This document shows positions 133 to 3,716 of a stretch of DNA of 10,196 nucleotides, piece by piece. Source of the DNA: Candidatus Eiseniibacteriota bacterium (lineage in GTDB: Bacteria; JAFGKV01); the NCBI GenBank assembly GCA_025453925.1, contig JALOPK010000092.1, positions 1 to 10,196 on the forward strand, in the 5' to 3' direction. Every line of letters starts with the position of its first letter. Positions within the stretch are counted from its first letter, which is position 1. Position numbers and translations under genes: made by a program. The notes under the pieces are model-generated. The model did not search any database. It saw only the letters and a program-made list of their open reading frames with translations, and was not told the origin of the DNA.

Positions 133-885
133 TCAACTATCCATGGCTGCCAGGACCCGCTCGGTCTCCAGAAGCTCACTCATCGTGTTGATCCCCAGCG
201 GGGCGCGGGGCGCGCCCATTGAGAGGGCGCCGACCCGGCAGTCCGCCAGGAACAGAGATCCTACAACATCGGTCAGATAGAGCTCGCCCTGGCTGTTGTC
301 GGCAGTCAGGAGCTCAAGCTGGGGGAAGAGCACGCCGGGGGCGAAGCAGTACGCGCCGGTGTTGACCTCGCTCACCGCCTTCTCATCGGGGGAGGCATCG
401 GCCTCTTCCACGATACGGACCACCCTCCCGTCCGATGCGCGGATGATCCGCCCGAAGCCCCTGGGATCGGGCAGGTCCGCCGTGAGGATGGTGACCGCAT
501 TCTCTTCCGACCGGTGGTGCGCCACCAGTCTCGCGATCAGCGCGCCGGAAACGACCGGCGCGTCGCCGCAGAGGACGGCGACATCCGAGGCATAGTCCGA
601 GAGGCAGGGGCGCGCCCATCTCACGGCGTCGCCGGTGCCCCGGGGAACAGGCTGCTCGGCGACTTCGGCGCCGAGGCCGCGGGCGCACTCCGCCACGCCT
701 GGCGTCGCCGGACCGGCGATCGCCACGATGAGGTCGGCGCCTGCCTCCCGTGCTGCCGAGATCACGTACTCGAGCATCGGTCTGCCCCGCAGAGTATGCA
801 GCACCTTGGGCAGATCAGAGCGCATGCGCTTCCCCTGGCCCGCGGCCAGAACAATCGCCGCGAACCCCTGGCGCTCACAGCTCAA
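133..885 (-). CDS. GlmU-like UDP-GlcNAc pyrophosphorylase domain protein (no acetyltransferase domain)
   Basis: This 250-residue protein is a nucleotidyltransferase of the GlmU N-terminal type, expected to join UTP and GlcNAc-1-phosphate into UDP-GlcNAc in the cytoplasm. The N-terminal nucleotide loop is LAAGQGKRM (13-21), followed by LPKVLH with Lys27. GTGDAV (83-88), the metal Asp108 in CGDAP, Glu160 in RIVEEAD, Asn175 in EVNTG and Asn233 in GINT all match conserved GlmU active-site positions. Bifunctional GlmU is about 450-460 residues. This one stops in the linker helix, so the left-handed beta-helix acetyltransferase half is missing. Neither the continuing frame after the stop nor the following gene restores it. 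The start is TTG at 885, since no other start codon precedes the nucleotide loop; a GGGGAG lies nine bases upstream. It overlaps the end of panC by 11 bases. A related sugar-1-phosphate nucleotidyltransferase with another substrate is possible. Confidence 0.82.
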   Translation of the reverse strand: MSCERQGFAAIVLAAGQGKRMRSDLPKVLHTLRGRPMLEYVISAAREAGADLIVAIAGPATPGVAECARGLGAEVAEQPVPRGTGDAVRWARPCLSDYASDVAVLCGDAPVVSGALIARLVAHHRSEENAVTILTADLPDPRGFGRIIRASDGRVVRIVEEADASPDEKAVSEVNTGAYCFAPGVLFPQLELLTADNSQGELYLTDVVGSLFLADCRVGALSMGAPRAPLGINTMSELLETERVLAAMDS

Positions 886-1738
886 CGCGAATGTCTCCCC
901 CAGTGCCGATTGTCCATAGATTGTCGATCAGCCGGGTCGTGCCCACACGCCCGGCCACCGCAACCATGGCATGGTGGTCAACGGCATCCACCGGGCGGAG
1001 CGTCTCACGGGAAACGACATCGCAATACTCCACGCCAAGGCCAGGGAACTTTCCCATGAGCTGCGACATCTCGTTGCGGATGGCGGCGGAGCGCCGCTCG
1101 CCCCCTTCAATCAGGGTCTTCGCCGCCTGCAGCCCCGCGTAGATGCCCAAGGCCTGCACGCGGTCGGCGGGGTTCAGGTAGGAGTTGCGGGAGCTCATGG
1201 CCAGCCCGTCAGGCTCGCGGACGGTGGGGCACACGACAATTTCGATATCGAGGTCGAGTTCCTTCACCATTCGATCGATCAACAGCACCTGCTGCCCGTC
1301 CTTGCGGCCGAACGGCACCACGTGAGGCGTCGTGAGGTTGATCAGTTTGAGGACGACGGTGCCGACTCCGCGAAAGTGATCGGGCCTCGTACGACCGCAC
1401 AGCAGCGCGCCAAGAAGTGGCCAGTAGACGTACGTCTCGTGAGACTGGCCATAGATCTCATCGGCTGAGGGAACGAACAGCGCGTCGACTCCGAGGGCGG
1501 TCGCCTTGGCGGCGTCGTTCTCGAGATCGCGCGGGTAGCGACTCAGATCTTCCGTGGGGCCGAACTGGATCGGATTCACGAAGAGCGAGACCACCACGGA
1601 GTCCGCCAGGCTGCGGGCGGTCCTCATGAGGCGAATGTGGCCCTCATGGAAGTAGCCCATGGTGGGAACCAGAGCGACTCTGCCCTGTGCGCCTCGTCGC
1701 CAGGCCCTGATTTCATCCTTGGTTCGGAGTATGTCCAT
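875..1738 (-). CDS. panC: pantothenate synthetase (pantoate--beta-alanine ligase)
   Basis: PanC condenses D-pantoate with beta-alanine using ATP, via a pantoyl-adenylate intermediate, in the cytoplasmic pantothenate/CoA pathway. The 287-residue length is normal. The N-terminal ATP motif is PTMGYFHEGH (25-34), with the HIGH-type His31 and His34; most family members have Leu where this has Phe30. FVNPIQF supplies Asn55 and Gln58, the KDxQQ segment supplies Lys146, Asp147 and Gln150, and MSSRN (181-185) is the KMSKS-like loop. All active-site residues known from the M. tuberculosis enzyme are present. Two usually conserved neighbours differ: Gly148 replaces the aromatic of KD(Y/F)QQ, and Asp120 replaces Gly in RPGHF. 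The ATG at 1738 has an excellent ribosome site (GAGGAG, six bases upstream) and lies three bases after the end of panB. The 3' end overlaps the next gene. Confidence 0.96.
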   Translation of the reverse strand: MDILRTKDEIRAWRRGAQGRVALVPTMGYFHEGHIRLMRTARSLADSVVVSLFVNPIQFGPTEDLSRYPRDLENDAAKATALGVDALFVPSADEIYGQSHETYVYWPLLGALLCGRTRPDHFRGVGTVVLKLINLTTPHVVPFGRKDGQQVLLIDRMVKELDLDIEIVVCPTVREPDGLAMSSRNSYLNPADRVQALGIYAGLQAAKTLIEGGERRSAAIRNEMSQLMGKFPGLGVEYCDVVSRETLRPVDAVDHHAMVAVAGRVGTTRLIDNLWTIGTGGDIRVEL

Positions 1739-1741
1739 GCA

Positions 1742-2545
1742 TCACTCCTCGGAGTAGGTTTCGTGAGAGGCGGGGAAGCGCCCCTGCTGCACGTCACCGG
1801 CGTAGGCCGTGACCGCGTTATGTATTACTTCAGCCAGGTTAGCGTACCGACGAACGAAACGCGGCACCCGTGGGCCGCCGAGGCCGAGTAAGTCGTGGAG
1901 AACAAGAATCTGCCCGTCGCACTGCGCGCCTGATCCGATTCCGATGGTGGGGATCGACAGCGCCGCGGTGATCTCGGCCGCTGGCCCGGGCATCACGCAC
2001 TCCAGCACGATGGCAAAACATCCGGCACGCTACAGCTCCTTGGCGTGCGCGACAAGGAGCGCACTCTCGTGATCGCTACGTCCGGCCACGCGGTATGAAC
2101 CGGTGAGGCGGACGCGCTGAGGCAGCAAGCCCAGATGGCCCATGACAGGGATGCCGGCATCCACCATGGCCTCCACCACCGCGGGGCGAAATCCCTCGAG
2201 CTTCACCGCCTGGCATCCACCGTCGCGCAGGAACTGCGCCGCATTCTTCAATGCCCGGGCCGTGGAGAGATGGAAGGAGAGAAACGGCATGTCACCGATC
2301 ACCATCGCGGACGCGACTCCCCGGGACACGGCCTTCGCGTGGTGAATCATCGCATCCATGGTCACGCCGACGGTATCCGGAAGCCCGAGCACGGCGGGAC
2401 CGACCGAGTCACCAACGAGGACGATGTCGATCCCCGTTCTGTCCAGCACGCTGGCGGTCGGGAAGTCGTAGGCAGTCAGGGCAGTGATCTTGCGACCTTC
2501 CTGCTTCCACTTCCGGAGCATCTGGGGAGTCACTCGCGCGCTCAT
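1742..2545 (-). pseudogene. panB: panB, ketopantoate hydroxymethyltransferase, interrupted by one in-frame TAG
   Basis: PanB transfers a hydroxymethyl group from 5,10-methylene-tetrahydrofolate to ketoisovalerate, the first committed step to pantothenate. The frame runs 267 codons, a normal PanB length, with no indel, but codon 172 (2032-2030) is TAG. Before it lie Asp46 in LVGDS, Asp85 in IGDMPF, Lys115 and Glu117 in VKLEG, and GHLGL. After it the same frame continues as [12 protein letters not shown], with catalytic Glu182 (E. coli Glu181), then the conserved IPTIGIGSG and DGQILVLHD blocks, ending in TGA. Homologues usually have an acidic or polar residue at the stop position, so one base change (GAG or CAG to TAG) would explain it. 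The 171-residue fragment lacks the catalytic Glu. No well-placed restart is visible. ATG 2545 has GGAGG seven bases upstream and overlaps the kinase stop (ATGA). A sequence error, a genuine nonsense allele or stop readthrough are all possible. Confidence 0.9.
2030..2032 (-). other. in-frame amber codon inside panB
   Basis: On the minus strand the codons read GAG-CTG-TAG-CGT-GCC. The flanking protein aligns with PanB without a gap on both sides (AHAKEL, stop, [12 protein letters not shown]). An AAGGAG lies just upstream, but the GTG it would serve is in the +1 frame, so it cannot restart panB. The in-frame GTG at 2008 would begin right at the VLECV core strand and has no good ribosome site. 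Confidence 0.93.
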
Positions 2546-3201
2546 AGTTCGTCCTCCGGATCCGCGCCGGGGATCCAGACCTGCATGCCTGCCTGCGTCT
2601 CAGCCATCTTCGCGATGAGGCGTTCGAGTTCCCGGTCGTCAGTGCGATAGTCAACCTTGTTCGTATCTACGACCAGCACCGGCGAGGCAGTATACGTGAA
2701 GAAGAAACGGTTGTACGCCTCGTTGAGCGCTTCGATGTACTCCCTGCTGATGCGCTTCTCGAATGACCGGCCGCGCTCCTTGATCCGTTGCATGATCACT
2801 TCGGTCCTGGCTTGGAGGTACACGACCAGGTCGGGCTGGGCGGCGGACTTCTCCAGCACTTCCGCGATGCGTTCGTACAGGACCAACTCCTGATCATCGA
2901 GGTTCAGCCGGGCGAATATCCTGTCCTTCGCGAACATGTAGTCGCTCACCACCATGTCCATGAACACGTCGGCCTGGCCGATCTGCTGCTGCTGCTTGAA
3001 ACGACTCAGGAGGAAGAAGACCTGCACTTGGAAGGCGTAGCGCTCTGGATCCCGGTAGAAATGAGCGAGAAAGGGGTTTTCCTCGACCTGTTCGAGGATG
3101 AGCCGGGCATCGAGCCGTTCCGCGAGACGGCGGACCAGGCAGGTCTTCCCAACGCCGATCACGCCCTCGATGGCCACGAAATGCTTGTCACCTACCACCA
3201 T
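2542..3201 (-). CDS. deoxynucleoside kinase (dCK/dGK family)
   Basis: A 219-residue cytoplasmic kinase that phosphorylates deoxynucleosides to their 5'-monophosphates for salvage. The P-loop is GVIGVGKT (13-20). It is followed by the substrate-pocket segment ENPFLAHFY (41-49), the YAFQVQVFFLLSRF helix typical of the family, the D-R pair in AKDRIFA (Asp93-Arg94), and the arginine-rich lid KERGRSFEKR (141-150) leading into the family's YIEALNEAYNRFF helix. Length matches bacterial deoxyadenosine/deoxyguanosine kinases; the preferred base cannot be read from sequence. I chose ATG 3201 over the adjacent GTG 3204 because GAGG sits four bases before it. The ATG shares one base with the folK stop, and the 3' end overlaps the panB ATG by four bases, so coupling is likely on both sides. 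The C-terminal tail (about 205-219) is acidic and outside the usual fold. Confidence 0.93.
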   Translation of the reverse strand: MVVGDKHFVAIEGVIGVGKTCLVRRLAERLDARLILEQVEENPFLAHFYRDPERYAFQVQVFFLLSRFKQQQQIGQADVFMDMVVSDYMFAKDRIFARLNLDDQELVLYERIAEVLEKSAAQPDLVVYLQARTEVIMQRIKERGRSFEKRISREYIEALNEAYNRFFFTYTASPVLVVDTNKVDYRTDDRELERLIAKMAETQAGMQVWIPGADPEDEL

Positions 3202-3716
3202 CACACCTCGAGTCTTCTGCCCGGGATCCCCGGCCGGCGGCGGCGGACACCCCCGGCCGCGCGCAGGAAGCGGTAGCCCGCGAAACGAACACCCGTCACC
3301 GGCGAGCAGATATCGGGGTTCAGGTCGAGCAGCGGCGACAGCACAAACGGTCGGCGGGCAATGCAGGGATGCGGGAGCGAGAGACTTCGATCACGACACA
3401 CATGATCACCACAGAGCAACAGGTCAAGATCTACCGTTCGCGGGCCCCAGTGGGCGGCCCGTCGCCGCCCGAGCCTACTCTCGATTGTCTGTAGGACCGC
3501 CAGAAGACCGGATGCGGCGCCGCTCCAGCGGATCTCCGCCACGGCATTGAGGAAGTCAGGCTGACGCGTCATGCCCAGAGGACGGGTTTCGTACATCGGG
3601 GAAAGCCGCGTGGTGGGCGACACGCGGCGCAGATGCATCACCGCCTCACCAAGCGTGGCCTCCCTGTCGCCGAGGTTGCTCCCTAGTCCTACATAGGCGC
3701 GCCGCCGCGTGGTCAT
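3201..3716 (-). CDS. folK: 2-amino-4-hydroxy-6-hydroxymethyldihydropteridine pyrophosphokinase (HPPK)
   Basis: FolK transfers pyrophosphate from ATP to 6-hydroxymethyl-dihydropterin, the step before dihydropteroate synthase in folate synthesis. The 171-residue protein opens with AYVGLGSNLGDR (7-18), the standard start. It carries the TRPLG...QPDFLNAV pterin/ATP region and the HPPK signature WGPRTVDLDLLL (90-101), with the two magnesium aspartates Asp96 and Asp98. LPHP with His116 follows, and RPFVLSPLLDL completes the fold. The last 20 residues are very arginine-rich and probably not part of the core. ATG 3716 overlaps the folB stop by four bases (ATGA) and has GAGGGTG about six bases upstream. 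An open frame extends far upstream, but that part is a shadow of folB. No folP or folE is visible nearby. Confidence 0.95.
   Translation of the reverse strand: MTTRRRAYVGLGSNLGDREATLGEAVMHLRRVSPTTRLSPMYETRPLGMTRQPDFLNAVAEIRWSGAASGLLAVLQTIESRLGRRRAAHWGPRTVDLDLLLCGDHVCRDRSLSLPHPCIARRPFVLSPLLDLNPDICSPVTGVRFAGYRFLRAAGGVRRRRPGIPGRRLEV

Follow-up and report, generated by a model that had tools for sequence, protein, structure and literature searches.

The panB gene serves the synthesis of vitamin B5 (pantothenate) and encodes 3-methyl-2-oxobutanoate hydroxymethyltransferase, a family covered by the profile PF02548 and by the NCBIfam equivalog TIGR00222, and Glu181 of the E. coli enzyme is catalytic. 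A stop codon inside such a gene can be set beside two known phenomena, namely the recoding of UAG, including pyrrolysine systems, and the single-base nonsense lesions or consensus errors of draft genomes. A literature search on recoding in Candidatus Fermentibacterota or on Glu181 turned up nothing. The gene described here is a panB with one in-frame TAG, an ordinary case of either a single-base lesion or an error in the sequence of an environmental draft genome.

The window analysed is an entire contig of 10,196 bases from a draft genome placed within Candidatus Fermentibacterota (3.9 Mb in 502 contigs, 82.3% complete and 2.9% contaminated). Its relevant features are as follows.

133-885, minus strand: GlmU-like nucleotidyltransferase (250 residues), to which GlmU models match over their N-terminal half only
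875..1738, minus strand: panC (pantoate--beta-alanine ligase), intact, next downstream of panB; TIGR00018, 298.8 bits
1742..2545, minus strand: panB, a full-length frame of 267 codons with one interruption
2000..2002, minus strand: panB codon 182 (GAG), the counterpart of E. coli PanB Glu181 in the alignment, lying 3′ of the in-frame stop
2030..2032, minus strand: the in-frame TAG, panB codon 172, at a position where 44 of 52 homologues carry Glu or Gln
2542..3204, minus strand: intact deoxynucleoside kinase-like gene (PF01712), lying immediately upstream of panB and overlapping its start by 4 bases

The initial annotation had described a single TAG in an otherwise intact, full-length panB, placed ten codons before the catalytic Glu, and both statements hold. 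Translation yields one frame whose sole internal stop is the TAG at codon 172, with a TGA at codon 268, and no second stop or frameshift is found anywhere in the full 267 codons. When the stop is read through, the frame matches PF02548 over model positions 1-258 of 259 (343 bits) and passes TIGR00222 with 295.9 bits against a cut-off of 207.6, while the 171-residue fragment by itself reaches 172.4 bits and stays under that cut-off. Judged from the sequence, the preservation of the frame together with family conservation across the TAG is not a matter of chance. The GAG at codon 182 is taken here to be the counterpart of Glu181 from an alignment to the E. coli sequence, and the PDB chain 1m3u, which is the same sequence as E. 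coli PanB as far as the alignment shows, gives the same placement. This residue is absent from the 171-residue product if the TAG terminates. No repeat crossing the TAG was found, and a search of the whole draft genome returned one match only, the copy with a single TAG inside. Among viral contigs, no relatives of panB were found.

The part of the gene behind the stop is as constrained as the part before it. Relative to the same-genus genome (G001), with which overall panB identity is 73.4%, amino-acid identity is 72.5% before the stop and 75.8% after it, and dN is 0.19 and 0.165, respectively; synonymous sites in this comparison are near saturation, so that these values tell only that there has been no long free drift downstream. 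All 51 near-invariant columns are kept, 29 of them before the stop and 22 after, and the 95 codons 3′ of the TAG are thus under no less constraint than the 171 codons 5′ of it. Since constraint is undiminished beyond the stop and no further stop or frameshift has accumulated, the comparison supports the view that panB is not an old pseudogene, as had been argued earlier from downstream conservation alone.

The 52 homologues have Glu (31) or Gln (13) at codon 172 in most cases, the remainder being spread over Ala, Arg, Ser, Cys, Val, and Thr, and none of them has a stop in this column. Both other genomes of the phylum that were compared, G001 and the same-family G002, have GAA at this codon in a panB without a stop, so that alignment to the sister genomes shows the TAG to be unshared. 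Because the column is mostly Glu or Gln, one substitution in a GAG or CAG is enough to give TAG, and both are common codons for these residues in panB and the adjacent genes.

Three readings of the TAG had been proposed at the outset: a sequence error, a recent nonsense mutation, and a codon read as an amino acid. The first two stand, while the third is contradicted by how TAG is used in this genome and by its release factor, tRNAs, and lack of PylS. Stop codons were surveyed in 0.53 Mb of readable sequence taken as stretches, several short contigs being read as N only. Of 360 stop-terminated long ORFs, a mechanically defined set that includes some false ones, 119 end with TAG, 216 with TGA, and 25 with TAA. 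Moreover, in several cases TAG stands at the natural C-terminus of a conserved protein, with the next gene starting in frame straight after it; for instance, the TAG of tpiA is followed in this way by secG, that of F-type atpA by atpG, and that of V-ATPase subunit B by subunit D. The genome also encodes an intact release factor 1 (481 bits). TAG is a working terminator in this genome.

A suppressor tRNA and pyrrolysine genes had been named as things to look for. No CUA anticodon occurs among the 39 tRNAs found in this genome, which is 82% complete; 38 of them were read by ARAGORN, while the remaining one, which lies at the edge of a contig, was read by eye as CGC. The PylS N-terminal domain (TIGR03912) has no match in the genome, and the C-terminal model TIGR02367 gives a sub-threshold 21.5 bits against a cut-off of 178.15; as a control, this model also has matches in 13 of 14 other genomes, 12 of these below the cut-off.

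Other conserved genes with an internal TAG had likewise to be counted, and none was recognised in the 0.53 Mb, panB being the only interrupted conserved gene. Further, none of 92 domain matches (52 ABC and 40 response-regulator domains) contains an internal stop. About 25 ORFs whose in-frame extensions resembled coding sequence were examined, eight by a Pfam scan and the remainder by eye. Seven of the eight scanned candidates proved to be pairs of distinct genes sharing a frame; in L044, the eighth, the junction is reached only by the end of a weak ABC-2 domain. An in-frame TAG in panD of G002, considered as a second case, was rejected as the natural C-terminal stop.

Genome-wide reassignment of TAG, a suppressor tRNA, or pyrrolysine insertion would give a full-length PanB and would agree with the intact, conserved frame 3′ of the stop and with the tolerance of several residues in the codon-172 column. 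However, the use of TAG at the end of ORFs that include atpA, tpiA, and V-ATPase subunit B, the intact release factor 1, the tRNA and PylS results, and the sister panB genes without TAG make this very improbable. An equally slight chance is given to a species-specific suppressor or a leaky UAG context, which might likewise produce full-length PanB, with the tRNA gene lying in the portion of the genome that the draft lacks.

It is even more doubtful that PanB is made in two pieces, with the C-terminal one started internally, or that a structured site directs programmed readthrough of the TAG. There is a GTG at codon 180 and an ATG at codon 185, the latter with a GGAG 6 bases ahead, but a start at this ATG would lose Glu182, and the GTG is without an obvious ribosome-binding site. 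As to readthrough, a stem-loop 3′ of the stop was sought by folding against shuffled sequence and was not found; the RNA there folds worse than the shuffled sequence (z +2.23), and the stop is not common to the sister genomes.

Should the cell really carry this base, translation would terminate at residue 171, and the last 95 residues would be lost together with the catalytic Glu. In view of what is established about the enzyme, the truncated product would be expected to be inactive because it lacks this residue. The position of the Glu codon behind the TAG, on which the earlier claim of an inactive product was based, is confirmed, and the inactivity itself we infer. A real and recent nonsense allele, fixed or frequent in the strain and leaving it to take up pantoate or pantothenate or to depend on its neighbours, is a possible explanation, although not the preferred one. 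The constraint kept downstream fits a recent event, and the failure of the panD and panE models to give a convincing match could fit a decaying pathway. On the other hand, profile matches show panC and the other genes of the operon to be intact. In this draft genome, panD (TIGR00223) has no match and panE (TIGR00745) only sub-threshold ones, but panE is a weak marker, as other reductases can replace it, and the missing panD may only reflect missing contigs, the genome being 82% complete and both relatives carrying panD; its absence is weak evidence of pathway loss.

The order folB, folK, deoxynucleoside kinase, panB, panC, and the glmU-like gene is common to the window and G001, and in G002 it is identical over the part held by the contig, where the kinase, panB, and panC lie at the contig edge. 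The order from folB to panC, with the kinase gene between folK and panB, is also seen in the distant genome G005, as it is in G001. Stretches homologous to the GlmU-like gene, of about equal extent, follow panC in both G001 and G002, which suggests that this 250-residue gene is a stand-alone one and not a truncation.

The reading preferred here, with a probability of about 60%, is that the TAG is a consensus error of metagenome assembly or a captured minor strain allele in an otherwise functional panB under selection, the single-base lesion falling on a codon that would be Glu or Gln as in relatives. It is ranked first because panB is single-copy, panC is intact, and a one-base change is the sole lesion in a fragmented draft of 502 contigs; sense codons in the relatives also favour it. 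Against an error counts the fact that the assembly is not visibly error-rich, as seen from the 92 domains without a stop and the lack of another interrupted gene in 0.53 Mb. That an error rather than a mutation is responsible is our inference.

The case has little weight outside genome annotation, where a gene caller would report panB as two fragments or as a pseudogene and wrongly score the organism as a pantothenate auxotroph. Neither recoding nor auxotrophy should be inferred from a lone in-frame stop in a draft genome unless reads support it.

Compared with UAG recoding and pyrrolysine systems, the locus shares an in-frame UAG and a conserved frame after it but differs in having no CUA tRNA and no PylS, with release factor 1 present and TAG a common terminator. 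It resembles known panB genes, as defined by PF02548 and TIGR00222, in matching over the full length on either side of the stop, in its single copy, and in its position adjoining panC, and differs from them in the TAG at codon 172. With the single-base nonsense lesions or consensus errors of draft genomes, from which no difference was seen, it has in common a single substitution that relatives do not share, in a gene otherwise undecayed.
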